Below the pieces are notes generated by a model, which worked only from the letters and a program-made list of their open reading frames with translations, did no database searches and had not been told where the DNA came from. A DNA stretch of 64,000 nt from an uncultured Prevotellaceae bacterium (lineage in GTDB: Bacteria > Bacteroidota > Bacteroidia > Bacteroidales > Bacteroidaceae). The position numbers and the translations under genes are program-made. The DNA is taken from contig CACXPX010000015.1 in assembly GCA_902769705.1 (NCBI GenBank), positions 1-64,000 on the forward strand, read 5' to 3'. Positions 9,235-43,274 of the stretch are shown one piece after another (position 1 is the first letter of the stretch; every line of letters begins with the position of its first letter).

Positions 9235-9783
9235 ATGTTCGCAAAGGACGAAGTCTGTTGGTTTCCCATGCGTGTGACCTACAATCGTGAGATGTCAGTG
9301 AAAAGAGAACTCGATGCTCTGGGCATTGAGAACTTTGTTCCTATGCATTATGAGTTGCGCGAGAATAATGGCGCCCGCAAAAGGGTGCTCGTTCCGGCAA
9401 TCCATAACCTGATTTTCGTCAGGTCCACGCAAGACACGTTGACGGAGTTGAAGAACACGCGTCGTGAGCTGATGCCGTTGCGCTATATTGTGCGGCATAC
9501 GCTCGAAGACGGCCGCGTGGAAATCATTGTTGTCCCCGACCGCCAGATGGAGAACTTCATGCGTGTAGCCGGTGTGGAGACCGATGATGTGATGTTCCTC
9601 GACTGCAACGAGTATATCTGCCGCGTGGGTCGGAGGGTGCGCATCGTTCAAGGTCCTTTTGCCGGAGTCGAAGGCGTCATCAAGCGCATCAAGAACAACA
9701 AGCACGTGGTGGTGCAGGTGGAAGGTTTGGCGGCTGTTGCCATCACATTCGTTCCGCCAAGTTTGTTGGAGGCTGTTGACTGA
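9235..9783 (+). CDS. UpxY-type NusG paralog (transcription antiterminator)
   Basis: Specialised NusG paralogs load on RNA polymerase at the start of a long operon and suppress premature termination. The N-terminal NGN domain starts at WFPMRVTYNREMSVKREL (residues 9-26) and includes NFVPMHYE. A C-terminal KOW domain is recognisable at about 130-175 (VRIVQGPFAGVEGVIKRIKNN). Length 182 matches UpxY proteins, which in Bacteroides head capsule loci. Here the gene heads the secretion block, 54 bp before clpV, while the adjacent glycan operon runs the other way. I infer that it serves this 34-kb transcript. The 175-nt leader before it is the likely loading region. Confidence 0.85.
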   Translation: MFAKDEVCWFPMRVTYNREMSVKRELDALGIENFVPMHYELRENNGARKRVLVPAIHNLIFVRSTQDTLTELKNTRRELMPLRYIVRHTLEDGRVEIIVVPDRQMENFMRVAGVETDDVMFLDCNEYICRVGRRVRIVQGPFAGVEGVIKRIKNNKHVVVQVEGLAAVAITFVPPSLLEAVD

Positions 9784-9837
9784 CGTTTCAAATAAAGTCT
9801 ATTCTAAACTAAATCAATACACATAAAAAAATCGTTT

Positions 9838-12189
9838 ATGGACAAGTACGCTAAAATCCTAGAGAATCTTCCGTCCGGCTATTTGCACATTGCACAGTCG
9901 TTCGCAACCGACAACAAGTCGCCGAAGATTGAACCTGCCCATCTGTTGCGCGCTTTGCTGCACAAGAGCATGGGGCTTGTGAATTTCATCGAAGACACCC
10001 TCGATGAAGACTATTACTACCTGATTGATTGGGCCGACATGCGGATGAAGCAATGCGACAAGTCGCCTTATGGAATGAAAGACGCCGAACTGTCGCACGA
10101 TGCGCAGAACGTGGTGAAAGAGGCTGTTGACCTTGCAGAGAAGTGCGGACTGCCCGAACTGAACCTCGTTTGCCTGCTCGCTGCTTTGGCAAAGCCTGGT
10201 GTAGGCTTCAGCTATGAGCAACTGAAGACGATGCCCCTGCAGGCCGATAAGATTATCAAGGTCATCGAATCGGACCCCGCCGCTAAGAAACCCACTCCGG
10301 CAAAGGCTTCTGGAGGAGGCGTTTCTGCCGCTTCAACGGCTGGTGTGGCCGACACATCGGAGTATTGTCTGGCGATGCTCGATGAAGTGCCTGAGAGCAA
10401 CATCATCGGTTTCGACAAGGAAATCCTTTCCATCATCGAGGTGCTGGCTCGCAAAGACCGCGCCAACATCCTGATTGTAGGTGAGACGGGCGTGGGAAAA
10501 ACTAGTCTGATTAACGGCATCGTTCAGCGTGTGCGCGACAAGAAGGTTCCTGCTTCGCTCGAAGCCTTGCAACCCTATGAGCTCGACTTGATTGCCCTGA
10601 GCCAGGGAGTGAGCTACAAAGGCGAGATTGAAGACCGCTTCAAGAAAGTTTCGGAGGCTTTGCTGGGACAGACACAACCTGTGCTCGTGATTGAAAACTT
10701 CCATCGTGTGGAAGACAAGCAGTCGACGTTGAACGGCATTCTGCCCGGATTGAAGAAACTGCTCTCGAAGAACGAGCTGCAGGTGGTTTGCACGTCTACC
10801 ATCGACGGCTATACAAAAGACATCGAGAAGGACAAGGAGTTCACGGCATTCTTCGAGAAGATTACCGTTGAGGAACCCAACGAGGAGCAAGCCATCGAAA
10901 TCATCAATAGCAAGCGCGAAAGCTATGAGCAGTTCCACCATCTGCCCATCGAGGACGAGGTGCCTGCTGAAATCGTGCGACTGGCTAAGCGTTATATGCC
11001 CGACCGCCGTCTGCCTTCATCGGCTCTCGATTTGCTCGACCGTGCTATGTCATCGGTGAAGATTGCCACAGAGATGGCCGCTCTTGCCGAAGACAAGAAG
11101 GATGTGCCGCAGGAGGTGAAACTGGAGAAAGACGCCGTTCGCGACGTGGTGGCCAAGATGACGGGTATTCCTATGGGTAATATCCAGAGCGAGGAGCGCG
11201 AGAAACTGGGCAATGCCGAAGAGATTCTGCACAAGCGTGTGGTTGGTCAGAACCACGCCATCAAGAGCATTCTCGACGCTATTTTCGAAAGCCGTTCAGG
11301 CTTGAACAAGAAAGGTCAGCCTATGGGCTCGTTCTTCTTTCTCGGCCCGACTGGAACAGGAAAGACGGAGTTGGCAAAATCGTTGGCAAACTTCCTCTTC
11401 GACGACGAGACAGCAATGCTGCGCTTCGATATGTCTGAGTACAAGGAGGAGCACTCGGTGGCTCTGCTCTATGGTGCGCCTCCGGGATATGTGGGATACG
11501 AAGAAGGCGGCTTGCTGGTCAACCAGATTCGTCAGCATCCTTATAGCGTGGTGTTGTTCGATGAGATCGAGAAGGCTCACAAGTCGGTGTTCGACCTCTT
11601 CTTGCAGATTCTCGATGAAGGTAAGTTGCACGACCGTCTGGGCCGTGTGGGCGACTTCTCGAATTCGCTCATCATCTTCACCTCAAACATCGGTAGCGAT
11701 TACATCTTCAAGTCGTTCGGCGAGGGTGTTGTTCCCACGCACGACAAGTTGCTGGAGGTGATGCAAGGCAACTTCCGTCCGGAGTTCTTGGCTCGTTTGA
11801 CCGAGATTGTTCCCTTCTCACCCATCACGGAGGAGATGATCGACCGTATCTTCGACATTCACATTAAGAACCTGTTGAAGACGCTCAACGAGCAGAATAT
11901 CAAACTCGTCATCGACGAGTCGGCCCGCAAGTATGTCACCAAGGTGGGATTCAACGCTCACTATGGCGCTCGTCCTATCCTCGGTATCATCCGCAAGGAA
12001 ATCCGCCGTCCGCTCTCGAAACTCATCATTGCCGGCGACATTGCTCCAGGCGACACAGTTACGATGAAGTACGATGAGGAGAATAAGCAGATCATGTGGG
12101 ATATCGACACTCCTGACGACCCTGATGCACCTGCTGCTCCCGCTGAGGAGCCAAAGGCTGAAGCGCCAACGGAAGCTCCCGCTGAATAA
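9838..12189 (+). CDS. tssH: ClpV/TssH-type AAA+ sheath-recycling ATPase
   Basis: T6SS ClpV disassembles contracted TssB-TssC sheaths. Seen: a Clp N-domain (1-145), an Ala/Pro-rich linker (148-172), AAA1 with Walker A GETGVGKT (215-222) and pore loop VSYKGE, then AAA2 with Walker A GPTGTGKT (503-510), Walker B VVLFDE (571-576), pore loop GYVG and an Arg finger in FRPEFLAR. The middle domain is very short, unlike ClpB. Odd: AAA1 has IEN where the Walker B Asp-Glu should be (285-287) and FTAFFEK where the RRF arginine fingers sit, so AAA1 probably binds but does not hydrolyse ATP. The C-terminal tail is Ala/Pro/Glu-rich. It is the first machine gene and sits directly before tssB-tssC. ClpB is the alternative reading, but context argues for ClpV. 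Confidence 0.88.
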   Translation: MDKYAKILENLPSGYLHIAQSFATDNKSPKIEPAHLLRALLHKSMGLVNFIEDTLDEDYYYLIDWADMRMKQCDKSPYGMKDAELSHDAQNVVKEAVDLAEKCGLPELNLVCLLAALAKPGVGFSYEQLKTMPLQADKIIKVIESDPAAKKPTPAKASGGGVSAASTAGVADTSEYCLAMLDEVPESNIIGFDKEILSIIEVLARKDRANILIVGETGVGKTSLINGIVQRVRDKKVPASLEALQPYELDLIALSQGVSYKGEIEDRFKKVSEALLGQTQPVLVIENFHRVEDKQSTLNGILPGLKKLLSKNELQVVCTSTIDGYTKDIEKDKEFTAFFEKITVEEPNEEQAIEIINSKRESYEQFHHLPIEDEVPAEIVRLAKRYMPDRRLPSSALDLLDRAMSSVKIATEMAALAEDKKDVPQEVKLEKDAVRDVVAKMTGIPMGNIQSEEREKLGNAEEILHKRVVGQNHAIKSILDAIFESRSGLNKKGQPMGSFFFLGPTGTGKTELAKSLANFLFDDETAMLRFDMSEYKEEHSVALLYGAPPGYVGYEEGGLLVNQIRQHPYSVVLFDEIEKAHKSVFDLFLQILDEGKLHDRLGRVGDFSNSLIIFTSNIGSDYIFKSFGEGVVPTHDKLLEVMQGNFRPEFLARLTEIVPFSPITEEMIDRIFDIHIKNLLKTLNEQNIKLVIDESARKYVTKVGFNAHYGARPILGIIRKEIRRPLSKLIIAGDIAPGDTVTMKYDEENKQIMWDIDTPDDPDAPAAPAEEPKAEAPTEAPAE

Positions 12190-12243
12190 GAATCCAAAGT
12201 GAAAGAATAAACCTAGTTATTAACAATAAAAATCATTAACATT

Positions 12244-12699
12244 ATGGCAAGAAAGACTGTTATCAGTAAGGTGCTCGACGTAGAAGCACAAGATGGCATC
12301 ATCGAGTTCCCGCAAAACCGAATCCTGTATGCCGACCAATTCACTGACGAGGCACCCACCACTGACGAAGACCGTGAAGGCTTTAAGCCGAAGAACATGA
12401 ATGATGTCTTTGAACACTATCAGCCCAGCAAGAACGGTGTGACGATGGAAACCGAAGATGGTGGCGCTGTTTACGAGGACTTCGACTTCAAGAGCATCAA
12501 AGACTTCGAAGACGAGCAATTGATCGCACATAGCGAATTGATGAGTGGAGCCAAGAACAAAATCGACGCTTACAACTCTGTCATCCGTCAGTTGGAGAAG
12601 AATAAGACTCTGCGCAACGCCCTCAAGGACGAGGCTGCTCGCGGCAATCTGAAGAATGCTTTGAAGGCTCTGTTGGCAGAGCTTGACGAGGCTGAGTGA
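12244..12699 (+). CDS. tssB: T6SS contractile sheath small subunit TssB
   Basis: TssB pairs with TssC to form the contractile sheath around the Hcp tube. The 151-residue protein has the family pattern DVFEHYQPSKNGV near residues 54-66, followed by an acidic stretch and the FKSIKDFEDEQL block that forms part of the TssB-TssC interface. The C-terminus is helical and charged (KNKTLRNALKDEAARG). It lies 54 bp after clpV and 44 bp before tssC, the standard order, with an A-rich leader instead of a Shine-Dalgarno site. Confidence 0.9.
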   Translation: MARKTVISKVLDVEAQDGIIEFPQNRILYADQFTDEAPTTDEDREGFKPKNMNDVFEHYQPSKNGVTMETEDGGAVYEDFDFKSIKDFEDEQLIAHSELMSGAKNKIDAYNSVIRQLEKNKTLRNALKDEAARGNLKNALKALLAELDEAE

Positions 12700-12743: not shown

Positions 12744-14126
12744 ATGGCAGCAGAAGAACTGAAACAAGAAACTCAAGGTGAAGGCGTACAGCTTCGTGAG
12801 AGAGAAAAGATAGAAAACCCGCAGGGTTTGCTACAAGAGAGCCTCGATGGACTGAACAAGTTCGGAGGATTCCAGATGGTGAAAGGCCTTATCAAAGGCG
12901 TTGAGAATATGGACCCACGCCGCAAGGCTGTGAAGAATATTTTCTTGTCGGATGCAGCTTACTCTGACAATCGTAAGAAACTGAAGAACGAGTTGGAACT
13001 TTGGGTGAGCATTCTCGAAGCTGGTGGAACTGATCCCATGCAGATTATCGAACAGTGCCAAGCTAAGCGCGACAAAGCTGAGCAGAACTTGAAGGCTAAC
13101 CTTTTCAATGTTCATGAAGAATTGAGAAACATGGAAACGACTTATCGTTCGCTTGACTCTTTCTTCGCTAATGCAGGACAGGGAAAGATTGACTGCATCA
13201 CTTTGATGAACGTCAACAAAGGCGAGTTGGAGTATCATGATTCAGAAGATACTGTGGCTCTTCGCGACGAAATGGAGAAATACTACGACCGCCTGAGCCT
13301 GAAGAACAACTATTCACTGATGGTGATTCCCGGCTATCTGGGCGATGCCAACACTGTGCGTATGTGGGCCGACACTGCTTATCGCAACAAGGTGATGTTG
13401 ATTACAGACTTCAAGGACAGCCAGAACTTCAGCATGCTGAAGGATGAACTCGATGATGCAAACTTGCAGGGTCAAGAGGCAAAAATGGCTAATGTGGTGA
13501 TGACTTGCAACTACCTGTTAGGCCGCAAGAAGAGCGAGTTGGCCGACGAGGACGATGACCTCTACATCCCCGCATCGGCAGCTTTGGCAGGTCGCATGAC
13601 CAATACCGAAGAGACCGTGATTGCACAAGGTTGCGCAGGTAAGAAGTATGGCACTCTGAGCAATGTGAAGGGTGCACGTCTCGATTTGCGTAAGAGTGAG
13701 ATTGCTGCTCTCATCGACCAAGGTGTGATTCCTATGGTGGAAGAAGATGGTCGCACGATGGCCTTCTCTAACCGCTCGCTCTACAACGGTGCAACTCTTG
13801 GATTGCAAGAGTATCCTATCGTTCGTACTTTCGACTGGATTGGAAAAGTGTTCCAGAACTTCTTCAACGATGAGGCTTTCATCAATTGGAACTCGTCTGT
13901 GAAGGCTGAGTTGCAGCAGGCTGTTCATGACTTCCTGAGCGACTATAAAGGCCCAGGCAAACTCATCGAGAACTACAACTTGAAGGGTATCAACCAGGAT
14001 CCTAAGACCAAGGACATCCACATTGAGGTGGAACTGAAGCCTTTCTTCGCAGCTAAGAACTTCTTCATCGAACTGACCGGACACAACGGACAGGCTGGTG
14101 TTGAGTGGGATCAGAACGTCCAGTAA
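12744..14126 (+). CDS. tssC: T6SS contractile sheath large subunit TssC
   Basis: The large sheath subunit, 460 residues, a normal TssC length. It shows the predicted architecture: a helical N-terminal region, a central domain (YSLMVIPGYLGDANTVRMWADTAY is split over residues 191-214), and a C-terminal sheath handshake domain ending in IHIEVELKPFFAAKNFFIELTGHN. The segment RTFDWIGKVFQNFFNDEAFINW resembles the conserved TssC block before the last strand. It follows tssB directly. A 121-bp gap then precedes the first hcp gene, consistent with differential expression of sheath and tube. Confidence 0.9.
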   Translation: MAAEELKQETQGEGVQLREREKIENPQGLLQESLDGLNKFGGFQMVKGLIKGVENMDPRRKAVKNIFLSDAAYSDNRKKLKNELELWVSILEAGGTDPMQIIEQCQAKRDKAEQNLKANLFNVHEELRNMETTYRSLDSFFANAGQGKIDCITLMNVNKGELEYHDSEDTVALRDEMEKYYDRLSLKNNYSLMVIPGYLGDANTVRMWADTAYRNKVMLITDFKDSQNFSMLKDELDDANLQGQEAKMANVVMTCNYLLGRKKSELADEDDDLYIPASAALAGRMTNTEETVIAQGCAGKKYGTLSNVKGARLDLRKSEIAALIDQGVIPMVEEDGRTMAFSNRSLYNGATLGLQEYPIVRTFDWIGKVFQNFFNDEAFINWNSSVKAELQQAVHDFLSDYKGPGKLIENYNLKGINQDPKTKDIHIEVELKPFFAAKNFFIELTGHNGQAGVEWDQNVQ

Positions 14127-14247: not shown

Positions 14248-14652
14248 ATGGCAACAAGAACAACAACCCTGGATGCTGATGGCATCAAGCAGCGTGAAGT
14301 ACTTTATGTACGTTATGAACTCAATCAGCAGACCGATGTGGAAGGACAGCCCACTGGTACAACCCGTGGAGGTAAAATCCGCATCCGTGTTAAGTCAATG
14401 GACGACGGTAGCTCTGATTTGATGGAGTGGATGTGCGATACATATATGAGTAAGAGCGGAACCATCTCGTTCCCCAACCGTCAGGGTGGTGAGATGAAGG
14501 CTCTGAAATTCAAGGAGGGATACATGGTTGAATATGCTGAGACCTACGATTCCACCAACAGCCTCTTGCAGTATGAGGAGTTCACCATCTCTGCCAAGGA
14601 AATCGAGGTGGGCAACGCCAAGCACAACAACCGTTGGACTATTGACAACTAA
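14248..14652 (+). CDS. tssD: Hcp-type tube protein (TssD), copy 1
   Basis: A 134-residue protein of the Bacteroidetes TssD family, which forms the inner tube of stacked hexameric rings propelled by sheath contraction. It has the characteristic VLYVRYELNQQTDVEGQP opening, the GGKIRIRVKSMDD strand, a DLMEWM helix start, and the C-terminal beta strand EEFTISAKEIEVGN with a terminal W-T. No signal peptide, as expected. It is preceded by a long A/T-rich leader and followed by a strong hairpin (14666-14699), an arrangement expected for a highly expressed structural protein. It is more distant from the next two Hcp genes than these are from each other, suggesting this is the bulk tube subunit. Confidence 0.88.
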   Translation: MATRTTTLDADGIKQREVLYVRYELNQQTDVEGQPTGTTRGGKIRIRVKSMDDGSSDLMEWMCDTYMSKSGTISFPNRQGGEMKALKFKEGYMVEYAETYDSTNSLLQYEEFTISAKEIEVGNAKHNNRWTIDN

Positions 14653-14777: not shown

Positions 14778-15185
14778 ATGGCTTTACAAGGACACTTGAA
14801 AATAGGACAGAAAACCTATGGAATCATACAATGCCAATATGAGTTCAACCAGGCATGCGACGGTTCCAGCAAGCCAACTTCGCGTCCCCATGGAGGAAAC
14901 ATTACCTTCGTGATGCCTGCAACAAGCGATGACGACCTCTTCTTTTACAAGTGGATGTTCAATAAGACGGAGGTAAAAAATGGCACATTCACTTTCACGG
15001 TGTGGTCGAAGCAGAACAAGCAGAGTTACAAGACGGTTTCGTTTGAGAATGCTTATTGCATCAACCTATCCGATTATTTCAACGATAGTGACAGCCGACT
15101 GATGTATACAACCATAACACTGGCTGCTGAAATCATAAACATCGGATCGAGCGACACCGCTGATTTCGACAACGAATGGACATAG
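14778..15185 (+). CDS. Hcp-type tube protein (TssD), copy 2
   Basis: A second TssD-type protein, 135 residues. Features: HLKIGQKTYGIIQCQYEF at the N-terminus, the HGGNITFVMP strand, DLFFYKWMF, and an end in IINIGSSDTADFDNEW. It is clearly closer to the C-terminal domain of the next gene than to hcp copy 1 (shared GGxITFV, DDLFFYKWMF/DEDLFFYRWMF, NDSDSRLM, DNEW/NNEW). It may be a tube variant placed next to VgrG or one that accepts the fused repeat protein. It lies 25 bp before the fusion gene, so the pair is co-translated. Confidence 0.86.
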   Translation: MALQGHLKIGQKTYGIIQCQYEFNQACDGSSKPTSRPHGGNITFVMPATSDDDLFFYKWMFNKTEVKNGTFTFTVWSKQNKQSYKTVSFENAYCINLSDYFNDSDSRLMYTTITLAAEIINIGSSDTADFDNEWT

Positions 15186-15210: not shown

Positions 15211-18200
15211 ATGGATTTTAATTCTATTTTAGCCCCGCTCAATAAAAGTGCTGAAACCATAACGGGTGCGATAGGAAAAATGCAAGCCCTGCCTCAGGTT
15301 CCCGGCTTGCAACTACCTGGCGAATTGACAGCACCACTGCAACAATTGCAGAAGAGTTCGGCTATGCTGCAAAGTGCGCAGCAGAAAATGGCTACGCTTG
15401 CGCAGACTTTCCAAAATCTTCCAGCCGAAAGTCAGCAATCCGTGATGCAGGCCTTGAGTTCTTCGAATATCACGGGTAACATCCAAAGTGCCACCTCTGC
15501 ATTGGAAAGCAAGTTGCCCAATCCTGAAAATCTGGCTAATCAATTCAATGATGCTTTCTCAGCTGCTCAATCGAAGGCTGCTGATGCTGTAGGACAAATA
15601 CAAAGCAAGGCCACCGAAGCCTTCAGTGCTGCACAACAAAAAGCCACTGGAGCCCTCGGAGAAATTCAGGGGAAAGCCTCAGAAGCATTCGGAGCAGTTC
15701 AAGATAAAATGTCGGGTGCCGTCAACCAATTGCAAAGTCAGGCTGGTAGTGCCCTTAACAATATCCAAGGTCAGGCCAATCAGGCTCTAAATACGGCACA
15801 AGGTCAGTTGAACAATGCTGTGGGCCAAATCAAAAACACAGCCGATCAGGCATATAGTGCTGCACAGCAACAAGTAACGGATGCACTTAATGAGGTGCAA
15901 CAGCAGGCATCTAGTGCTTATGAAGAGGTCCAGAATCAGGTTAATGGAGCCATCAACAAAGTTGAACAAACCGCTGAAGATATCCAGAACCAAGCCAATC
16001 AGGCTTTCGATACTGTACAAAGTAAAAATAGCGAATTATATAACAACGCTGGAACGAAATTAGAGGAAATACAAGGAAAGGCTGAAAATTTCATTGACAA
16101 TACTGGAAATCAAATTGATAGTATTGGAAATCGAATTGAGAATGGCGTTGACAATCTCAGCAACAAGGTGGACAACCTTGGTGACAAGGCTTCTCAGTTC
16201 GGAGAAAACCTTGAGCAAAAGGCCACCCAGTTCGGTGAGAACTTGGAGGGCAAGGTCAACGAGTTCGGAGACAAGGCAACTCAATTTGGAGAAAATCTCG
16301 AGCAGAAAACCACTCAGTTTGGCGAGAATCTGGAAGGCAAGGTCAACGAGTTCGGTGACAAAGCCACTCAATTTGGCGAGAACCTTGAGCAGAAAGCCAC
16401 CCAGTTCGGAGAGAATTTGGAAGGAAAGGTCAATGAACTTGGCGACAAAGCTGCTCAATTCGGAGAGAATCTCGAGCAGAAGGCCACCCAGTTCGGTGAG
16501 AATTTGGAGGGAAAGGTCAACGAGTTCGGCGACAAGGCTACACAATTCGGTGAAAATCTGGAAGGTAAAGTCAACGAGTTCGGGGACAAAGCCACTCAAT
16601 TTGGAGAGAATCTCGAGCAGAAGGCAACTCAATTCGGTGAAAATCTGGAGGGCAAGGTCAACGAGTTCGGAGACAAGGCAACTCAATTTGGAGAGAACCT
16701 CGAGCAGAAGGCCACCCAGTTCGGTGAGAACTTGGAGGGTAAGGTCAACGAGTTCGGAGACAAGGCAACTCAATTTGGAGAAAATCTCGAGCAGAAAGCC
16801 ACCCAGTTCGGTGAGAATCTCGAGCAGAAGGCAACTCAATTCGGTGAAAATCTGGAAGGCAAGGTCAACGAGTTCGGCGACAAGGCCACTCAATTTGGAG
16901 AAAACCTCGAGCAGAAGGCCACCCAGTTTGGCGAGAATTTGGAGGGCAAGGTTAATGAGTTCGGTGACAAGGCAACTCAATTTGGAGAAAACCTTGAGCA
17001 GAAGGCTACTCAATTCGGTGAAAATCTGGAAGGCAAGGTCAATGAGCTCGGTGACAAGGCAACTCAATTTGGAGAAAACCTTGAGCAGAAAGCCACCCAG
17101 TTCGGTGAGAATCTGGAAGGCAAGGTCAACGAACTTGGCGACAAAGCTTCTCAATTCGGAGAGACCATCGAAAACAAAGCTGGCGAAGTTCAGGAAAAGT
17201 TGGAGCAAGGCATTGCCAATGCTGAGAAGAAAGTTGGTGATGCGGTTACCAAGGTGCAGGACACCATGGAGAATGCCTACAACGCAGCTGAGAAGAAGGT
17301 CAACGATGCAGTTGAAAAGGTGGAAGGTGCTATCGATGATGTTACGGAAAAGGTGGAAAGTGCCATCGATAATGCCAAAGAGCAAATAGGCGAAGCTTAT
17401 GAGAACGCTAAAGAGAAGATTAGCGACACCTATAACAATGCAAAGGAAACGGTCAGCAATGCTTATAACGATGCAAAGGAAACGGTCAGTAATGCTTACA
17501 ATGATGCAAAGGAAACAGTCAGCAATGCGTATAACGAAGCTTCGGAGGCTGTTGACAATGCAGTCAATGAGGTAACCGATGCTATCAATCAGGCTTATGA
17601 CGAAGCCCAACAGGCTGTTGACCAGGTGGTTGATGATGTGAACAAGGCTATCGATGAGGTCAACAACGCTATTGATCAATTCGAGAATGCCGTCGCTGAA
17701 ATCGAAAACAAGATTCAGGAGACTGTCGAAAAGGTCGAAGAGACTGTCGAGAAAGTCAAGGACACCATCGACACCATCCGCGACCGCGTTGGCACAGTTG
17801 CCGACCGCATTGGTAATCTTGGCAGTTCCATCGGTAGTGGTGACTTGGAAAAGGCTCTTCGCTTGCGCAATCTCCCCATTGCCCAAGATCACACAGCTTT
17901 CCACGGCAAACTGGAAATTGGCCAGCGCAAATTCGGCATTGTGCAATGCTCCTATAGTTTCAGTCAATCAGTAGACAGCACTGGCAAACCCGTGTCGCGT
18001 CCTCGTGGCGGAAAGATTACCTTTGTGCTGCCATCGCGCAGCGATGAAGACCTTTTCTTCTACCGTTGGATGTTCAGCAAGACAGAGGTGGAATCTGGAT
18101 ACTTCCGTTTCGTTGTCTGGGCACAGCAGAATCGTCAGAGTTTCAAAACAGTCTCGTTCCAGAACGCCTATTGCGTGGGGTTGAAAGATTTCTTCAACAA

Positions 18201-34785: not shown

Positions 34786-36576
34786 ATGGACATTGAATTA
34801 GAGAAAAGAATCAACGATGCGATGGCGAGTCTGCAGCAGATGGCTGTCGACGACTTCGACTATCAAAACCTCGACCCTGTGGCCAAGATGATGCTTGTCG
34901 CCTTGGTGGCCGAAGCACAAAAAATACAAGACTACATAGATGGAACCACAGAGCGCATCGTGGAGCGCTATTGTGCTGACTTTATTCCCCGTCAGAAGGT
35001 AGAGGCTACACCAGCCGTCTGTCTGCTCAAACCCGAGTTGAAACCTATGCGTGATGCAGCCACCATCAATGTCGGTGCAGGCACATCATTCGCTTTCAAG
35101 ATTGAGGGATTGAAGCAAGCCATCAATTATATTCCCATCTTCAAGACAGCACTGTTGCCTCATAAGGGTCTCTTCTTGCTCACCAGCCGTGCCATGCGTA
35201 ATGGTGAGCGGCAGTTCGACATCCACTTCGGTAAGCCCAACCACTTGTGGGTGGGCATACAGACCGAAACAGAACTCGATAACTTGCAGGGTTTGTCGCT
35301 GTTCATTCGAGGCACACAGGGCGTAGTGCCTGAGCACATATGCACCATTGACGACAAGGAATTGGAGTTCGCTTCGATGCGTGAGCTTGAGAACATTGAG
35401 ATGGCTGAGCCTTTCGACGCACAACAGGCTTCGGGACAGTTGTTCTCGTTTGTGGAGTCGTGGAAAGAAAATCTGTTGAATATCGACAATGCCGCATTGC
35501 TCTACATCACTGATGAGATTGAAGACCGCGACATGTTCAAGCCGCGTGCCTATCCACGCTCGTTCCAGCAGTGGTTAGAAAACGAGGTACTTGACTGCTT
35601 TGACCCAGAAACCGTATGGCTTCGTTTGGAGTTCCCAGAGGGATACACGGTTCCCGATGACTGTGAGGTGGTACTCAACGCATTACCAGTTACCAACATC
35701 GACATCAACTCGCTGATGCTAACACAGTCGCAACCTTTGCAGAAACTGCAGAAACTTGAAAACTCGTTTTTCCTGCGCATATTGGAGACTAGTACAGCCT
35801 CCAACCGGCAAGGATTCGGCATGATGGGTGATGAGATTATCGTGCGCGATTTTGAAGCTGCTTGTTACGATAACGGTGCACTCTATCGCGATGTGCGCAA
35901 TCTCTATAATCACTTCATCGATGACTATTATGCCTTTGTTGAGTACAATGGCATTAAGGATGGTGAAACACTCAAGCAGTTGCGTGAGACTATCAACAAA
36001 ATAGGTAAGAGTGTGGGTGCACAAAATCCGAAGTATAGTTTTGAAAGCGGAACCTATGTGATGAAAAATATGAACCAGTCGCAGCTCTCGACATCTACGA
36101 AAGTCACTTACATCACCACACAGGGACGTATCGGTAACGCTCCGCGTGCTGGTGAGATGATGGACAACCGTCGTCTTCCTGGTGTGGAACAGAAGGTGGA
36201 AGTGCTCGTCTCTGGTATGGGTGGCAGTGACAAGGCTACGCCCGATGAGCGTTACGAGCAGTTGCGCTATTTCTCATTAACTAACGATCGTCTCTACACT
36301 CGAATGGATGTAGATGCCTTTTTGCGCAAAGAGATTATCAGTGAGTTTGGTAAGGAGGAGTTCCGTCGCATCTTCATCAAGACGAGCATTGGCGGAGCTG
36401 GTACCAAAAGTGGTCTATGTCGTGGCCTTTATGTGGACATCGAGTTCAAAGACCGCAAAAACTATCAGCATGCTGAAAGCATCGGATACGACAACCTGAT
36501 TAGACAGAAAATCATCAATAAATCATGTATTGCCTTACCGATTGTCGTGACATTGAAAAATCTGGAGGACGAATAA
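34786..36576 (+). CDS. tssF: T6SS baseplate protein TssF
   Basis: TssF is the main baseplate wedge protein. The 596-residue length and opening fit: an N-terminal helix pair (DPVAKMMLVALVAEAQKIQDYIDGT), an early RYCADFIPRQKVEATPAV that matches the TssF block before the first beta domain, GAGTSFAFKI, and later strand-rich regions. C-terminal segment SGLCRGLYVDIEFKDR is consistent with the last TssF domain. It follows tssE at 31 bp; the next gene starts 3 bp after the stop and differs strongly in composition. Confidence 0.82.
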   Translation: MDIELEKRINDAMASLQQMAVDDFDYQNLDPVAKMMLVALVAEAQKIQDYIDGTTERIVERYCADFIPRQKVEATPAVCLLKPELKPMRDAATINVGAGTSFAFKIEGLKQAINYIPIFKTALLPHKGLFLLTSRAMRNGERQFDIHFGKPNHLWVGIQTETELDNLQGLSLFIRGTQGVVPEHICTIDDKELEFASMRELENIEMAEPFDAQQASGQLFSFVESWKENLLNIDNAALLYITDEIEDRDMFKPRAYPRSFQQWLENEVLDCFDPETVWLRLEFPEGYTVPDDCEVVLNALPVTNIDINSLMLTQSQPLQKLQKLENSFFLRILETSTASNRQGFGMMGDEIIVRDFEAACYDNGALYRDVRNLYNHFIDDYYAFVEYNGIKDGETLKQLRETINKIGKSVGAQNPKYSFESGTYVMKNMNQSQLSTSTKVTYITTQGRIGNAPRAGEMMDNRRLPGVEQKVEVLVSGMGGSDKATPDERYEQLRYFSLTNDRLYTRMDVDAFLRKEIISEFGKEEFRRIFIKTSIGGAGTKSGLCRGLYVDIEFKDRKNYQHAESIGYDNLIRQKIINKSCIALPIVVTLKNLEDE

Positions 36577-36579
36577 GAT

Positions 36580-37866
36580 ATGGGAGATTTTAGCGAAAAG
36601 TATTCTTCGTGGGGTGGAACCAACAATGTGTTGGTTAGTTCAAGTCAAGAATCAGAAGAATCATCTAGTAAGTATAATTTCGCTGATTCTAATGATAATT
36701 CTTCAATGAACGAGAATGTTCAGGAGAATCCATATAAGTATACTTCTCCCGATGCCAATAGTAAGATTTATGTAACAAATGAGTATAGTCAATATGTAAC
36801 TAAGCAATGGAGTCAAAGTCAAGCCGCAAAGCGTTATAGTATACAGACTCCGAAAGTACAAAATCCAAGGTATAATATACAACCTCCGCCAACTCAAATG
36901 ACAGAGGAGGTATTTAAAGAACAATACAAATCTACATTTGAAAAGTTTTTAGAAATATTTGATACAGCAACTGGCGTAGTTGGCGATACTTCATCGGGAA
37001 TATCTGGAGTTGGGTCTGGTATGACTGGTTTCTCAAAAGATTCTTCATTAGGAACTCGCATTATTCAAGGTATACATTCGTTAATCTTGGGAGCAGAAAA
37101 GGTATTGGCCAAAATACGTTTGAATTTTACTTTTAATTGGGGATCTCCTAAGAGTTTCGAAAAGAGTTTGCGCTTTGCAGAAAAAGCTGGAGCAAAACAA
37201 GCTATTTCAGAAGCTAAAGCATCATCAGCTGCAAATAAGATAGGATATGTTGCGTTAGTATTACTATTTTTAGTAGCAGTATATAGGGGATGTATGTGGG
37301 CTACAGCAACCTCAGACGAAGAAAAGGAAATATGGGCTTCTAAATTCCGTGGAGCTTTATATAATTTTTTCTTGGCGTTAGCCGTTCAGGCATTATCTAA
37401 GTCTCATCCTGTTGCATTAATAGTTGGTATAGCAATTGCAATTATGGATGCTGTCTTTATGTATATTTCAAATGGTGAATGTGATTTTGGTTATGCTTTT
37501 GATTTAGGTTTGCAATGGTGGGGAGATACAATTAAAGGTTGGCACAAAGCTGGTGTTGATTATTTCGCAGAAACAGTATTTCCATATTATGAGAAAAAGA
37601 TAAGTGAGGTAGAGGAAGTTCGTCAAACAGGTGTTGAAATAATGTCTCAAGGATTCCAAGCATGGGATGAGGGGCTACATGAAGCAGGAGAGACGATTCA
37701 CGAAACATATGATAGTGGTGTTGAAGTCATGAGTTTAGGATTCCAATATTGGGGTGATAAATGGGATGAATTCCTCGAATGGAGAGAAGAAAATAAGAGT
37801 AATTCAGATTATAATGGGAATGATCTTCCATGTTGGGAAGTGCCAGGTGCTTCTGCTGGTTTATAA
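36580..37866 (+). CDS. AT-rich gene for an unknown membrane-associated protein
   Basis: Not recognised. It starts 3 bp after tssF but is markedly AT-rich (third positions mostly A/T), unlike every neighbour, suggesting recent acquisition. The 428-residue protein has a Ser/Asn-rich disordered head (1-95), a Pro motif (QPPPTQ near 100), a Gly/Ser-rich segment (130-160), one or two hydrophobic segments (about 223-245, 262-300) and a C-terminal tail with two diverged copies of GVEIMSQGFQAWDE / GVEVMSLGFQYWGD. The layout (disordered leader, hydrophobic core, amphipathic repeats) would suit a pore-forming effector delivered by the system. A structural role is equally possible. No immunity gene of clear identity follows. 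Confidence 0.55.
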   Translation: MGDFSEKYSSWGGTNNVLVSSSQESEESSSKYNFADSNDNSSMNENVQENPYKYTSPDANSKIYVTNEYSQYVTKQWSQSQAAKRYSIQTPKVQNPRYNIQPPPTQMTEEVFKEQYKSTFEKFLEIFDTATGVVGDTSSGISGVGSGMTGFSKDSSLGTRIIQGIHSLILGAEKVLAKIRLNFTFNWGSPKSFEKSLRFAEKAGAKQAISEAKASSAANKIGYVALVLLFLVAVYRGCMWATATSDEEKEIWASKFRGALYNFFLALAVQALSKSHPVALIVGIAIAIMDAVFMYISNGECDFGYAFDLGLQWWGDTIKGWHKAGVDYFAETVFPYYEKKISEVEEVRQTGVEIMSQGFQAWDEGLHEAGETIHETYDSGVEVMSLGFQYWGDKWDEFLEWREENKSNSDYNGNDLPCWEVPGASAGL

Positions 37867-38060
37867 AAATATTATAGAATCCCTCAGTAATTGTTTGTTT
37901 GATAAAAGTGCTCATTTCAGGAGGCATTGATAGTACAAAAGTTTCATATGATGGAGACAAACCATATTTGGTTGCCTAACATATATGAGGGCATAGCAAA
38001 GGCTATGGCAGATGATAGATCTTGTTTTTTGGAAGTTTAATCTTTAATGAAACACAATAC
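37867..38060 (+). other. AT-rich gap with possible gene remnants
   Basis: A 194-bp AT-rich gap. A frame without a start codon (about 37902-37979) encodes VLISGGIDSTKVSYDGDKP and a 29-codon frame with ATG at 37951 ends at 38040. The first reads like a fragment of a real protein, so this may be debris of a small gene that came with the AT-rich gene, perhaps a lost partner. Both are too short to call. Confidence 0.3.
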
Positions 38061-39077
38061 ATGAAGAGACTTGCTGTTATAAGTATAGTTTTCATATTGT
38101 TTGCGTATGCAACGGAAGTGAGCGCACAGTCTTCGTCCGACATACGTAACTATATAGCTAAATATAGCCAGATTGCATTGGAGCAAGAGCGGACCTATGG
38201 TGTGCCGGCATCAATTACGATTGCTCAAGGTATCCTGGAGTCGGGAGCAGGTAAGAGCGGACTGACGCGCAACGCTAACAACCACTTCGGCATCAAGGCG
38301 TTCGGTGGTTGGAAAGGTCCCATCTATCAGGCTTGGGACGACGAGCCCAACAAGAGTAAGTTCCGCGTGTATGCATCGGCGGCAGAGTCGTTTCGCGACC
38401 ACTCGCTGTTCTTGAAGAACAACAGCCGCTATCGCAGTTTGTTCCAAAAGAGCGTTTATGACTATCGCGGTTGGGCTATCGGTTTGCAAAAGGCGGGCTA
38501 TGCCACAGCTCAGACCTATGCTAAGGCACTTATTGGTTTCATTGACGCCTACCAGCTTTATGCCATCAATGGTGGTGTGAAACTGCGTTCTGGTGCCACT
38601 GTGACCATCCGCCGACCTGTTCAGACTGGTGGCAATAAGAACAAGCAACAGCAACAGGGCCGCCCCGAGTTCTTGCCCGAGGAACAGATGGCTGAAGATG
38701 AAGAGTCGGAGGAGGAGAAGAGTGTGAAGGAGGCTGTTAAGAAGTTCCTCGTGGAGGTAAACGACGTTCGTTGCACGGTGCTCTATCCCGGCCAGACATT
38801 ATCATCGGTGGCCATGAAATACGACATCCCGAAGCAGAAATTGCTGGAGTTCAACGAGACCACTCGTGAGGACGACTTCAAGGAAGGCGACATCGTGTTC
38901 CTGGAGAAGAAGAAAAGTAAGTTTACTGGTGCACAGGACTTCTATCGCGTTAAGGCTGGCGACACTGTATATGGCATTTCGCAACAGTTTGGCATCAAGA
39001 TGGCCAACTTGACGAAGATGAATAAACTGAACCTCTTTTCAGTACTGAAAGAAGGTGAGAAACTGAGATTGAAATAA
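38061..39077 (+). CDS. Exported glucosaminidase (GH73-like) with two LysM domains
   Basis: A peptidoglycan hydrolase: signal peptide (1-22, ending VSAQ), GH73-type N-acetylglucosaminidase domain (about 25-175) with catalytic Glu E60 in GILESGAGKS and the NNHFGIK block, then an acidic linker and two LysM domains (about 230-285, 295-339: VLYPGQTLSSVAMKYDI; YRVKAGDTVYGISQQFGI). The frame is open 39 bp further upstream, but ATG at 38061 gives a proper signal peptide. Within a secretion cluster it most likely opens the cell wall for assembly of the apparatus, as lytic enzymes do for other T6SS. It could also be an effector, but the signal peptide points to the producer's own periplasm. Confidence 0.85.
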   Translation: MKRLAVISIVFILFAYATEVSAQSSSDIRNYIAKYSQIALEQERTYGVPASITIAQGILESGAGKSGLTRNANNHFGIKAFGGWKGPIYQAWDDEPNKSKFRVYASAAESFRDHSLFLKNNSRYRSLFQKSVYDYRGWAIGLQKAGYATAQTYAKALIGFIDAYQLYAINGGVKLRSGATVTIRRPVQTGGNKNKQQQQGRPEFLPEEQMAEDEESEEEKSVKEAVKKFLVEVNDVRCTVLYPGQTLSSVAMKYDIPKQKLLEFNETTREDDFKEGDIVFLEKKKSKFTGAQDFYRVKAGDTVYGISQQFGIKMANLTKMNKLNLFSVLKEGEKLRLK

Positions 39078-39091: not shown

Positions 39092-40579
39092 ATGATTCAT
39101 CTAAGAGATTTTGCCCAAAGTGGCGAATTGTTCGACGGACGCTACAAACTGTTGCGCCCGTTGAGCACGGCAGGAGGTACAGCTGATGTGTGGCTGGCCT
39201 TGGATGTAAACACCATTGATATCGACGAGTCGCTGGGCGATGAGACAGATGATGACTCTGGTGCTGGCAGCGGTATGAAGGTGGCCATCAAGGTTTATCG
39301 GCCCAAGAATGCACTCGATATCGAGGGTGAACAACGGTTCCGCGACGAATACAAGATTGTTTATAACTGCCACCACGAGAATCTGCTGCAGCCCACGCAC
39401 TTCTCCATCTTCCAAGGCATGCCCTATTTGGTGATGCCGTTCTGCAGTGCTGGCTCGTCTGAGAAATTCATGGGGCAGTGGACCACCGACGACGAGGTGT
39501 GGAAATATATACACGACGTAGCATCGGGTTTGGCTTATCTGCATGCCAACAATCCGCCCATCATCCATCAGGATATCAAACCAGGCAACGTGCTCATTGA
39601 TGACAATGAGAACTTCTCAATCACCGACTTTGGTATCAGTTCTAAGTTTGGCGGTAGTCACCAGTATTATTACGACGACGAGAACGCTGGCACACTGGCC
39701 TATATGGCTCCCGAACGCTTCGTTGAAGGCGCAGTGCCTATGGCCGAGAGCGACATTTGGGCGTTGGGTGCCACAGTTTATGAATTGCTCACGGGCAACG
39801 TTCCCTTTGGTGAGGAAGGGGGCATGAATCAACCCGAGGGAGAGGTAAGTCTGGAGTTCCCCAAGTTCCTTGGTCCTGAGTTGCAAAAGCTCATCAAGGC
39901 TTGTCTGGAGCGTAACCCAATGATTCGTCCTACCGCCGAATATCTGAGCGAGGCCGCCCGTTTGAAGCAATATCCCATCAAGCGCCAAAGCGGACTGTTA
40001 TGGAAGATTTTGTTGGGCGTGGTAGCCGTTGTGGCTGCTGTCGCCATCTATTTTGCCATTCAAGCACCTGAAAAACCAACACCTCCCGAGGTGTATTTCG
40101 AACAGGCGATGAGACAGGTGGACTTTCCTTCTGCCGACAGTGTGAAGGTTGGTGTTGCCCTGCTTGACTCTTTGGCAGGTGTGGGCTATCTGCCCGCCAT
40201 TCGTCAGTTGGCACTTACCTATGGTTGGTACGGTGAGACAGAACCCGCTTCGCTAAAACGCAAGGAATATCTCGGCATCGAATTAGGCAACCCTAACGTT
40301 GCCGAACGTGCCAGTAACCTGGCTGCCTATCTGCCCACACGCGACAGCTACAACCAAAAAGCTATCGGCTACTACAATATGATAGTGACATCTGCCGACA
40401 GCACACATAACGAGTGGAAGATGGATGCAGCCTACCGTCTGGGCGTCTATTATCTCTATTACACTCCCAATCCGAACCTCGCGCGCAAGTCGTTCATGAA
40501 GTGCAAGGAATATGCCATTCTGTTGAAAGACAAGACGATGGAGGAACGTGTTGACATTGCGTTGGAAGAAATCAACTAA
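39092..40579 (+). CDS. Transmembrane Ser/Thr protein kinase (Hanks type)
   Basis: Kinase domain at residues 15-295: Gly-rich loop STAGGTADVW, catalytic Lys K67 in VAIKVYR, catalytic loop H159-Q160-D161 with K163 and N166 (Gln in place of the HRD Arg), D179-F180-G181, and APE at 206-208. A membrane span at 302-323 is followed by a periplasmic helical (Sel1/TPR-like) domain of 170 residues that could sense envelope state. The Gln for Arg change marks a non-RD kinase, often not dependent on activation-loop phosphorylation. With the PP2C two genes downstream and the FHA-like domain upstream, it recalls the PpkA/PppA/Fha switch of other T6SS. It lies 14 bp after the glucosaminidase gene. Confidence 0.9.
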   Translation: MIHLRDFAQSGELFDGRYKLLRPLSTAGGTADVWLALDVNTIDIDESLGDETDDDSGAGSGMKVAIKVYRPKNALDIEGEQRFRDEYKIVYNCHHENLLQPTHFSIFQGMPYLVMPFCSAGSSEKFMGQWTTDDEVWKYIHDVASGLAYLHANNPPIIHQDIKPGNVLIDDNENFSITDFGISSKFGGSHQYYYDDENAGTLAYMAPERFVEGAVPMAESDIWALGATVYELLTGNVPFGEEGGMNQPEGEVSLEFPKFLGPELQKLIKACLERNPMIRPTAEYLSEAARLKQYPIKRQSGLLWKILLGVVAVVAAVAIYFAIQAPEKPTPPEVYFEQAMRQVDFPSADSVKVGVALLDSLAGVGYLPAIRQLALTYGWYGETEPASLKRKEYLGIELGNPNVAERASNLAAYLPTRDSYNQKAIGYYNMIVTSADSTHNEWKMDAAYRLGVYYLYYTPNPNLARKSFMKCKEYAILLKDKTMEERVDIALEEIN

Positions 40580-40592
40580 TAACCATTAAAAT

Positions 40593-42362
40593 ATGATGAA
40601 GAAATCCTTATTCATTGCCATGTTGCTCGTTATAGGAGCAACGGTAAAAGCACAAGTTGTCAGCCGCGTCATTCCGACAAGGTTCGACAAGGTGGAGAAG
40701 GCTAAGGGCATAGGCTTGTTCCTGTGCAAACAAGGCAACACCACATATATATGGACACGCGAGCGCCGCCAACTTGGCCAATCGCAGGACAACGTGGCTT
40801 CGTTCAGTGAGCGCAAGGCAGTCACCATCACACCAGGAACAGACATTGTGACGGGCTTCTTCAATCTGGAGACAGGCAAGTATGAGAAACTGCCCGGCTA
40901 TCGCATTGCCTTGAACCACCCCTATTTTCACGATGGTAACCTGTTGGTGAAAGACCGTAAGGATTTTGCCTATGTGTCTTCGGACGGCAGCATTCGCATC
41001 CGTGCAACAGAAGGACAACCGTTCCGCGGTGGATATGCCGTCTGCAACGGTTATGCTGCTTCACAAAAGGCGAAAGATGCCACCTTCGGATACCGTACAA
41101 CAAGCGGTGACCTTGTGAGAATTTCGCTGAACGGTGAGGTGGTGTCAGGCGGTGACATAGACTTTCTTTCATCGTTGAATCCTGAAGGCACCAGTGTGGT
41201 CATCGTGAAGCGCAAGGTTTATCTCTTCAGCAAGGGGAATGGACAATTGCGCCCATTGGAAGATGGTGCTGGTTCACAGGTGACTATTGACGGCTCTGTG
41301 GGCGGTGCAAGCCAGAAGGTGGGTGATTCGTTGTTCGTCATCAAAGCTAATGCTGACAAACAGCCTGTGAAGTTGACATTCGACCGCTTCCATGTTCCTC
41401 TGTCCATCGCCTTTGCTGACAACACCATCAACTATCCGCGTTTCAGCGAAGGAGAACCCAGCGACCCTGGACTTGAGATTATCAACGGTCACGGCCATCA
41501 GGGGCTGAAGTACAAAGGCGAACTGTTGCTGCCCATACAATTCGACGCCCTTGAACTGACCGACGACAACTATATGTATGTGAACGAAGACGGCAAGTGG
41601 GGTGCACTCTACTTCGATCCCGATGAGAAGTTCGAAATAACTCTGAACGACGGCAAACCTCTTGACTTCCGCCATGCAAAATACAACACCTCAGTAAGTG
41701 TCAAGATGCCGGCTTCAGTTCCCCCCGAACGTACAGAACTGCATTCCAGCGAACGCGCGAAGATGGAGGTAGACCTTACATCGGTGGAGACCAAGAAGAC
41801 CTCCAGCGGAAACATGGCTGAGTTCAAATGCACACTGGGCATTCCTGACGAGCTGCCCGACACCACAGCAGACGTGGTTTATCCCTTCGAAGTGTTCTAC
41901 GACAATATCGTCTCGGCACCTATCCCTGTGACAGTTGAGGCTTGGCACGTGAAATATCACAATGTGAAGTTCTCTGACATCAAGATTGAGCAAGGCGGAG
42001 TGGACTTTACCATCAATGTCACAGAGAAACTTCTGCAAGGTGAGTCGAATTATCCCTTTGACGTCAAGGTGGTGGCAGGAGAAACGGAATACAAGACGCA
42101 AAAACTATCGGAAACACTTTACAAATGCCGCATTCCTTCGCTCCGTGAGGGTCGGAACACTTTCAAGGTCCTCGTCCAAGAGAAGGGTTGTCCGCCTTCT
42201 ACGTTCCCATTCAACGTGACCTACTCGAAGAACAAGCCTGCAGCAAGTGGTGGTGCCCGGAGTGGTGGTAGGAAGCCTGTTGCATCGTCGGGCAACGGAC
42301 AAGTGCAGGTTCATCATACTGAGGCTCCAAAGAATGTGCAGAAGTCGCGCATCGTGCTGTAA
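40593..42362 (+). CDS. Exported beta-rich protein of unknown function
   Basis: 589 residues with a signal peptide (MMKKSLFIAMLLVIGATVKAQ) and no later span. Residues 25-370 read as strand-rich repeats, perhaps a beta-propeller; NEDGKWGALYF near 330 resembles a WG-type repeat. Residues 390-540 look like one or two Ig-like domains (VYPFEVFYDN, FKVLVQEKGCPP). A Gly/Ser/Lys-rich tail follows. It sits between kinase and phosphatase genes (14 bp after the kinase, 18 bp before PP2C). It could be a periplasmic ligand or scaffold for the kinase's outer domain. No family identified with confidence. Confidence 0.6.
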   Translation: MMKKSLFIAMLLVIGATVKAQVVSRVIPTRFDKVEKAKGIGLFLCKQGNTTYIWTRERRQLGQSQDNVASFSERKAVTITPGTDIVTGFFNLETGKYEKLPGYRIALNHPYFHDGNLLVKDRKDFAYVSSDGSIRIRATEGQPFRGGYAVCNGYAASQKAKDATFGYRTTSGDLVRISLNGEVVSGGDIDFLSSLNPEGTSVVIVKRKVYLFSKGNGQLRPLEDGAGSQVTIDGSVGGASQKVGDSLFVIKANADKQPVKLTFDRFHVPLSIAFADNTINYPRFSEGEPSDPGLEIINGHGHQGLKYKGELLLPIQFDALELTDDNYMYVNEDGKWGALYFDPDEKFEITLNDGKPLDFRHAKYNTSVSVKMPASVPPERTELHSSERAKMEVDLTSVETKKTSSGNMAEFKCTLGIPDELPDTTADVVYPFEVFYDNIVSAPIPVTVEAWHVKYHNVKFSDIKIEQGGVDFTINVTEKLLQGESNYPFDVKVVAGETEYKTQKLSETLYKCRIPSLREGRNTFKVLVQEKGCPPSTFPFNVTYSKNKPAASGGARSGGRKPVASSGNGQVQVHHTEAPKNVQKSRIVL

Positions 42363-42380
42363 TCCAACTGAACAACCACT

Positions 42381-43274
42381 ATGAAAATCAAGTTATCAGC
42401 TATCACCGATGTAGGCAAGGAGCGCGAGCACAACGAAGACGCGTTTGTGCTTTGCCCCGACTTGTCGAAGCCAGATTGGTCGGTGGACGATACTGCAGTA
42501 CATCTGCCGTTGGGGCCCTATGGCTCGTTGGCCGTTGTTGCCGATGGCATGGGTGGTGCGAATGCTGGAGATGTGGCGTCGGCAATGACAGTCGACTCCA
42601 TTAAGAAATTCTTCTCCACCGAACAGTTGGCTGAGGTTGTCAAGAGCGATGCTGCCATCCGCAATTTCCTCTCGGCCTTTGTGACGAAGACGAATGAAGA
42701 ACTTCAGACCTACGCCTTCGACCATCCCGAGACAGCAGGAATGGGCACCACTATCGTCATTTGCTGGATGCTCCCTTCTTCTCCAATAGCCTACATCGCT
42801 TGGTGCGGTGACAGCCGCTGCTATGTGTACAATCCCAACGACGGTCTGCGGCCTCTAACAAAAGACCATTCCTATGTGCAGCAGCTGGTGGACAAGGGCG
42901 AGATTACGGAGGAAGAGACTTTCACCCATCCCGACAGCAACCTCATTACTCGTGGTTTGGGCGATGTGGACTGCGATGCCTTGCCCGATATTGTCTGCTA
43001 TACGCCCCAATCTGGAGATTGGTTGCTCCTCTGCAGCGATGGTCTGTGTGGTTATTGTACGAACGAAGCAATTGCTAATGTCGTAAAAGTGGATTATCCC
43101 GCTATCACGACTTGTCGCGACCATCTGCTGAAGATGGCACTTGATGCTGGCGGTTACGACAACATTACCATCGCTATCGCTTCGGTTATTAACGACGATG
43201 ATGCCGAACCTGACGAGAGTGCTAATGATGGTGGTTTTCTGAAATGGCTCAAGAACCTTTTCTGTAAAGGATAA
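42381..43274 (+). CDS. PP2C-family Ser/Thr protein phosphatase
   Basis: 297 residues with all PP2C metal motifs: REHNEDAF (15-22), VADGMGG (53-59), a WCGDSRCY block, LLLCSDGLCG, and GGYDNITIAIA. It dephosphorylates targets of the kinase encoded two genes upstream, probably the FHA protein or baseplate parts. It is cytoplasmic, with a short acidic tail ending in a hydrophobic LKWLKNLFCKG. It is the last gene of the cluster; an intrinsic terminator starts 33 bp after the stop. Confidence 0.92.
   Translation: MKIKLSAITDVGKEREHNEDAFVLCPDLSKPDWSVDDTAVHLPLGPYGSLAVVADGMGGANAGDVASAMTVDSIKKFFSTEQLAEVVKSDAAIRNFLSAFVTKTNEELQTYAFDHPETAGMGTTIVICWMLPSSPIAYIAWCGDSRCYVYNPNDGLRPLTKDHSYVQQLVDKGEITEEETFTHPDSNLITRGLGDVDCDALPDIVCYTPQSGDWLLLCSDGLCGYCTNEAIANVVKVDYPAITTCRDHLLKMALDAGGYDNITIAIASVINDDDAEPDESANDGGFLKWLKNLFCKG

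Follow-up and report, generated by a model that had tools for sequence, protein, structure and literature searches.

A predicted ubiquitin-type conjugation cascade encoded within a divergent type VI secretion cluster of Bacteroidota

A 64,000-nucleotide stretch of DNA from an uncultured Prevotellaceae bacterium (contig CACXPX010000015.1; hereafter the window) encodes a contractile type VI secretion system (T6SS) in which a set of ubiquitin-type conjugation genes is embedded. The cluster comprises 25 genes (9235–43274), all on the + strand, and belongs to a 138,720-base contig of a 3.6 Mb genome that is 99.4 per cent complete. A block encoding a ubiquitin-like protein (Ubl), an E2, a JAMM protease, a RING protein and an E1 sits between the tip gene and the baseplate genes. 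Very probably, the cluster encodes the T6SS of a lineage of gut bacteria that stands apart within the Bacteroidota, and a Ubl cascade that looks active is integral to it. A first-pass annotation of the DNA had described a single same-strand cluster with sheath, tube, spike, tip, baseplate and ClpV genes plus the Ubl set, and coordinates, strand and reading frames bear this out. The gene overlaps that it noted are also present, with 4 bases shared by the E2 gene and that of a membrane-complex candidate, M1, and 19 bases shared by the JAMM and RING genes; the M1 and M2 genes likewise overlap by 4 bases. Most of its gene calls stood, and others were corrected: 32253–33155 encodes TssG, 36580–37866 is left without an assignment and the FHA domain of the RING protein is degenerate.

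Weak individual calls for the Ubl, E2, JAMM and RING proteins were settled by family profiles built from relatives; the catalytic and ligand roles given below to residues of these proteins and of the E1 are presumed from their families. The Ubl (22940–23266, + strand; 108 residues, C terminus PIAG) has no relevant match in Pfam, and its family profile finds ubiquitin as the leading PDB matches. Among the best 60 of 254 PDB matches, single-copy ubiquitin lies at about 0.006 to 0.07 and repeated-copy chains lower, with three entries that we take to be of PB1 type ranking in between. Glycine is the exact last residue of the Ubl in 82 of 86 regions, and the remaining four (G051, L088, L138 and L153; G numbers denote genomes, L numbers loci or regions, and G000 the window's own genome) carry 1 to 4 residues beyond it. 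A JAMM gene is found in all four of these regions, and Gly-ending Ubls are found in five long RING-containing regions that lack a JAMM motif (G018, G020, G025, G787 and L150). Second Ubl copies fused to other sequence occur in the cargo region of four loci (L117 8713–9633, L119 5050–5769, L125 8094–8477 and L133 8668–9483); three of the four lack the glycine, and they can equally be cargo fusions or leftovers of recombination.

The E2 (23312–23971, + strand), with HPN at residues 116–118 and Cys130, matches PF00179 below the cut-off (8.6e-6). Its family profile matches eukaryotic E2s in the PDB at 2e-9, and HPN and the cysteine are kept in 89 of 89 E2 sequences. The E1 (30841–32040, + strand) is a ThiF-type protein (PF00899, 4.6e-49) with a C-terminal extension; Cys187 and four presumed zinc ligands are conserved in all 78 family members, which were gathered at 1e-20, a stricter threshold than for the other families, because ThiF and MoeB were to be avoided.

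The protease and the ligase candidate are both linked to the membrane. The JAMM protein (26584–28413, + strand) matches Prok-JAB below the cut-off (1.2e-3) and was called membrane-anchored from its predicted structure, transmembrane (TM) prediction and motif. Modelling suggests a hydrophobic N terminus, a helical part, a TM segment at residues 163–181, a catalytic MPN domain and a second MPN-like domain, with Rpn11 and CSN5 as the closest folds. The motif HxH(7)SxxD is present in 75 of 76 regions with a JAMM-family frame of more than 400 residues, the single exception (L084) lying on a 6.7 kb contig. The JAMM profile also gave partial matches (126 in 79 regions), among them M2b of G018, in which the motif is absent; in G025, a 688-residue match lies on the opposite strand outside the cluster. 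The RING protein (28395–30797, + strand), an E3 candidate, scores below the RING cut-off (3.4e-3) and is confirmed by eight ligands that are invariant across 79 of 79 proteins. It is predicted to comprise a hydrophobic N terminus, a vWA domain, a TM helix, the RING, further TM helices and the degenerate FHA domain; its TM part has no match on its own in Foldseek or VIA lists, which is not evidence of a new fold. Two presumed envelope proteins, M1 (23968–25023, + strand) and M2 (25020–26570, + strand), have no Pfam match, have signal-like N termini by eye and share a domain (probability 95.5). Judged by their sequences, these genes encode the parts of a Ubl conjugation system: a Ubl with C-terminal glycine and an E1, E2, RING protein and JAMM protease with their active residues.

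The other half of the cluster encodes a contractile sheath, an Hcp tube, a VgrG/PAAR spike, ClpV and the baseplate proteins TssE, TssF, TssG and TssK. All of these genes lie on the + strand. ClpV (TssH; 9838–12189, AAA_2 1.8e-57) is placed before tssBC in relatives; it matches TIGR03345 at 7e-140, yet below that model's cut-off, and ClpB and ClpA models score better. The small sheath subunit TssB (12244–12699) matches PF05591 at 3.9e-3, below the cut-off, and this call and that of ClpV were accepted because synteny in relatives supports them. The large sheath subunit TssC (12744–14126; PF17541, 7.7e-132) is of a divergent type, as its tree position also indicates. Two Hcp (TssD) genes follow (14248–14652 and 14778–15185; PF17642, 4.4e-34 and 7.5e-34), and then a long helical-repeat protein (15211–18300; 1029 residues, apolipoprotein-like repeats 4.2e-65) whose residues 896–1029 form an Hcp domain (TssD, 1.1e-30) and which is perhaps a specialised cargo-Hcp. 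VgrG (TssI; 18409–20412; PF04717 5.5e-23, PF05954 9.4e-18) and a PAAR-like DUF4280 tip protein with a helical C-terminal extension (20455–22686; PF14107, 3.8e-14) precede the Ubl gene. On the far side of the Ubl block lie TssG (32253–33155), TssK (33289–34260; TIGR03353 of NCBIfam at 2.3e-7, below the cut-off), TssE (34257–34754; gp25-like PF04965 at 8.4e-5, below the cut-off) and TssF (34786–36576). TssF and TssG of the window have no relevant match in Pfam; profile–profile comparison by hhalign with canonical Bacteroidota loci gave probabilities of 98.3 for TssF and 98.2 for TssG, against 0.1 for two mismatched controls, and 97.4 for TssK. Pfam scans of the cluster proteins found no TssJ, TssL or TssM within the cluster. 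An extracellular contractile injection system is disfavoured, given that ClpV, TssK, TssF and TssG are all encoded.

Among relatives, the Ubl set accompanies the divergent sheath. In a sample of 399 family genomes, drawn evenly, TssC scores over the cut-off fell into three groups of 715–760, 419–441 and 336–353 bits, three sub-cut-off matches (G721, G788 and G807) being left out. E2 was present in 14 of the 399 genomes, each of which also held a divergent TssC; by group, it occurred in 8 of 13 genomes at 419–441 bits and in all six at 336–353 bits. The first-pass annotation would have lost its footing if homologous T6SSs usually lacked the set. E2 is absent from all 14 genomes with canonical T6SSiii TssC only, whereas 13 of 18 divergent-only genomes carry it (14 of 19 with G644, which has both TssC types), and this co-occurrence supports the proposed T6SS subtype into which the Ubl genes are built. 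Fisher's test on the 18 versus 14 genomes, with kinship ignored, gave 3e-5 for E2 and 2e-9 for TssN. In a TssC tree, a single clade of 23 holds both divergent groups and all 18 rows with the ubiquitin-type set (support 100/99); the program flagged long branches, G081, labelled canonical, branches beside the clade, and the canonical label extends to canonical-looking genomes of the order and phylum samples beyond those scanned for TssN. The RING protein has matches in 5 of 60 genomes, including the window's own; three genomes of the same genus hold the Ubl set inside divergent T6SS loci, and a fourth, G051, has no PF17541 match. In a phylum sample of 296 genomes, E2 occurred in three and TssC in 18, with both together only in G000.

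Physical linkage shows the same association. Scanning genome contigs with an E2 alignment yielded 200 confirmed relatives; the best 80 serve here as the named E2 loci, a choice that leans towards close kin. All 80 come from Bacteroidota taxa, judged by names. A tssB, tssC, tssE, tssF, tssG, tssK or clpV gene is present in 73 of the 80, or 77 if vgrG and PAAR genes are counted, and three (L084, L123 and L143) have no T6SS gene. The 55 of these loci that are at least 20 kb long all contain Ubl, E2, E1 and RING genes, with a motif-bearing JAMM in 54, tssG in 53 and tssK in 50. The carriers include records titled as strains (Xylanibacter muris PMUR, Palleniella intestinalis PINT, Barnesiella An22 and Parabacteroides distasonis An863), and recurrence of the set in strain records and in two gene orders rejects chance or an assembly artefact.

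The window-type order is Ubl-E2-M1-M2-JAMM-RING-E1-tssG-K-E-F. The compact type, seen in G018, G020, G025, G787, G718, G644, G642 and G456, reads E1-tssG-K-E-F-Ubl-E2-M1b-M2b-RING, with no JAMM labelled within the cluster; JAMM is present in loci of the G213 kind. That content is largely kept despite the change of order argues that the set is a working unit. M1b, M2b, the RING protein and a PEGA protein would be the envelope candidates that recur among compact clusters. A combined E1, E2 and RING tree, obtained by quick search and with three rows chosen as the root, separates 41 rows taken as T6SS-linked from 3 others (SH-aLRT 100), with L133 counted as T6SS-linked solely through vgrG and PAAR; L138 and L140, which have the window order, group with the compact type.

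Genomes with divergent TssC only lack a TssN, the hub of the published T6SSiii anchor, over its cut-off. According to a survey of T6SSiii (PMC10781749), this type is found only in Bacteroidota, its universal parts are TssB, C, D, E, F, G, H, I and K, and TssNQOPR components are called obligate and form the sole such complex in the phylum, although TssO, Q or R was not found in some systems. The same text reports a ubiquitin-like domain and TssK binding for TssN, and a vWA domain in TssR (PMC10781749). In our data, TssN (PF17555) scored over the cut-off in 16 of 40 genomes: all 16 with canonical TssC, G644 included, and none of the 23 with divergent TssC only. These 16 comprise all 15 genomes of the 715–760-bit group and G135 from the order sample. 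TssR (PF17643) was found in 15 of the 40, namely the same canonical genomes except G135. In G000 neither PF17555 nor PF17643 has a match.

The sequences show gene content, linkage, conserved catalytic residues and the lack of TssN over the cut-off; conjugation itself, its substrates, the anchor role and the topology belong to a proposed mechanism. The Ubl would be charged by the E1 and handed to the E2, and the RING protein, held in the inner membrane, would direct its transfer at the docking site of the baseplate. The vWA domain of the RING protein could, together with M1, M2 and the N terminus of JAMM, form an envelope anchor such as TssNQOPR provides in canonical T6SSiii, a proposal that we hold with some reserve. 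Docking or assembly would be licensed once a baseplate or anchor protein carries the Ubl, and membrane JAMM, where present, would trim those few Ubls that extend beyond the glycine and remove the mark. An anchor built on a transmembrane RING ligase, with covalent Ubl attachment required for docking and firing, is a tentative idea, and a baseplate or anchor protein as the substrate is a doubtful one. The parallel with TssN, whose reported features are a ubiquitin-like domain and TssK binding, would be one of function; descent has no sequence support. A role at the membrane dock is preferred because the RING protein is predicted to sit in the membrane, no TssN scored over the cut-off and other envelope candidates are few in the compact type. 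Our best explanation as a whole, with a probability of about 0.5, is that the Ubl cascade is integral to the machine and controls docking or assembly, its membrane proteins taking the place of a TssNQOPR complex that seems to be missing.

Several observations weigh against this explanation. Sub-cut-off TssN matches, in frames of 662–698 residues, occur in G666, G020 and G787, and there may be a TssN too divergent for PF17555. In 35 profile comparisons of the module's membrane proteins or Ubl with TssN, O, P, Q and R, the highest value was 4.5 per cent (TssO, TssP and TssQ profiles were compared with these proteins only); neither RING, JAMM, M1 or M2 as TssNQOPR homologues nor the Ubl as a relative of TssN has a profile signal. 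For M1 and M2 of the window, and for M1b, the chosen threshold gave no TM helix, so that their place in the envelope rests on signal-like N termini; one TM helix is predicted in M2b of G018, the counterpart of M2. In the FHA domain the Arg that binds phosphate is kept in none of 79 proteins and the Ser in 3 of 79, a loss that argues against kinase–FHA control and weakens the case for a phospho-switch through this domain.

The association is also not strict. Five divergent-TssC genomes (G520, G617, G293, G589 and G463) have no E2. The T6SS contig of G520 stops at 11,133 bases, just beyond the tip gene, and its lack of E2 may reflect an assembly gap. G617, G293, G589 and G463 make up a single lineage that is sister to the window type on the TssC tree; neither TssN over the cut-off nor E2 was found in the genomes of G617, G293 and G589, which have long contigs, or of G463, whose locus is cut on a 5.7 kb contig. 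A divergent sheath can therefore exist without the Ubl set, which was either lost once or gained twice. Loci L155–L160 (G617, G293 and G589) hold instead a zinc-ribbon–FHA protein, kinases, a peptidoglycan-binding protein that has hydrophobic stretches and a gene that looks M23-like by eye. Conversely, the Ubl module occurs without PF17541 TssC in G051, G880 and G974, so its presence alone does not make a T6SS anchor. Of the three phylum genomes with E2 among the 296, two are G880 and G974; both hold E1-Ubl-E2-JAMM-RING, which implies that the module is older or wider than its T6SS link. In G051 the E1-Ubl-E2-JAMM-RING genes (L013 1548–18543) lie beside relatives of SrfB and Virul_Fac, the latter presumably SrfC, and the genome encodes a double-Ubl protein (L014 5811–6884). 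In G880 (L202 8837–17728) an ATPase-like gene, STAND-like by eye, precedes the module, and a PAAR-like gene (by eye) lies nearby on the opposite strand.

These TssC-free modules speak for the idea of a free-standing Ubl module, serving envelope stress or defence, that settled in the cluster without serving the machine. We think this improbable: TssC is present in all 14 E2-carrying family genomes, module genes are interleaved with baseplate genes in two orders, and PADLOC (2023) gave no family for the Ubl, E2, JAMM or RING protein, the E1 giving only generic E1–E2 matches. Marking or carriage of cargo by the Ubl for loading is likewise improbable. In window-type clusters the Ubl gene lies at the edge of the variable cargo region, where L117, L119, L125 and L133 have a second copy; such copies were seen in just four of the best 80 loci (an extra copy in L145 differs) and are equally explained by recombination at the border of a conserved block. 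In the compact subtype the Ubl gene sits after tssF, away from the tip.

Recycling, in which a spent sheath or other part would be Ubl-tagged for ClpV and the Ubl recovered by JAMM as the proteasome lid does, is unlikely, although ClpV is encoded in the cluster and the folds closest to that of JAMM are those of Rpn11 and CSN5. Compact clusters hold ClpV but no JAMM with the motif, canonical loci, which recycle through ClpV, have no E2, and the ligase candidate would be in the membrane rather than on the sheath. That the E1 and Ubl serve sulphur transfer rather than protein conjugation is very improbable: the best models for the E1 are indeed ThiF and MoeB, but it is accompanied by an E2 with invariant HPN and cysteine, a RING protein and, in most loci, JAMM, and the genome has a separate ThiF-family gene elsewhere.

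The cluster opens and closes with genes outside both the machine and the Ubl block, again on the + strand. At its head, immediately upstream of clpV, is a NusG-like transcription factor (9235–9783; PF02357 3.1e-9, KOW 1e-5), presumably UpxY-like, with a counterpart at the same position in G520. Downstream of tssF, a protein with hydrophobic helices (36580–37866) has no match in Pfam or in other window-type clusters, and no kinship with the peptidoglycan-binding protein of G617 was seen. A glucosaminidase with LysM (38022–39077; PF01832, 2.6e-35), a Ser/Thr protein kinase with one TM helix (39092–40579; PF00069, 3.8e-42), a secreted WG/TIG-like protein (40593–42362; PF14903 at 3.1e-3, below the cut-off) and a PP2C phosphatase (42381–43274; PF13672, 1.5e-13) complete it. 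Outside the cluster, on the minus strand (54785–63961), a 3058-residue LamG-domain protein adjoins a dockerin-domain protein.

Bacterial Ubl conjugation has been discussed mainly for phage defence, as in the cyclic-oligonucleotide-based antiphage signalling system (CBASS), where cap2 and cap3 include a fused E1–E2 with a CD-NTase. In the window, by comparison, E1 and E2 are separate genes, and Pfam scans of the 25 cluster genes found no CD-NTase family. Prokaryotic RING finger systems combining RING with E1, E2, JAB and Ubl were reportedly described by Burroughs and colleagues in 2011. Prokaryotic Ubl–E1–E2–JAB operons (PMC1779556) contain the same set of Ubl, E1-like, E2-like and JAB proteins; the window differs in having HPN in its E2 and a RING and a JAMM fused to membrane regions, and the text available for that paper contains 'type vi secretion' 0 times and makes no T6SS link. 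Bil and Bub are likewise bacterial ubiquitination-like operons, described as immune or putative immune, with 'secretion system' occurring 0 times in the available text (PMC13373217). Among the matches listed, open PMC papers, a scope that leaves out the primary Bil and Bub papers, the 2011 RING paper and most subscription papers and preprints, yielded no T6SS with a Ubl cascade.

Among known secretion systems, the window machine shares nine universal parts with T6SSiii as set out in the survey (PMC10781749), but its genome has a full Ubl cascade and neither TssN nor TssR over the cut-off. The GA1–GA3 loci of human gut Bacteroidales come from the same order and are the same kind of machine; the paper on them mentions a putative T6SS in Prevotella stercorea and retains only P. 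copri and P. stercorea from Prevotella, and the words ThiF and ubiquitin are absent from the main text (PMC4714493). In the T6SSiii survey, curated cut-offs served for most profiles, one model demanded at least one TssNQOPR gene and a second used universal parts only (PMC10781749). Profile surveys with cut-offs may miss loci of the present type because, in the window, TssB, TssE and TssK score too low for the Pfam cut-offs and nothing relevant matches TssF or TssG.

A secretion machine here comes with a complete Ubl cascade, and the published "obligate" anchor was not found in its lineage at the cut-offs used. This makes two questions testable: how these T6SSs are anchored, and whether the assembly of a bacterial nanomachine is under ubiquitin-type control. 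If the anchor is indeed built on a transmembrane RING ligase, a ubiquitin-type step would be integral to the assembly of a bacterial injection system.

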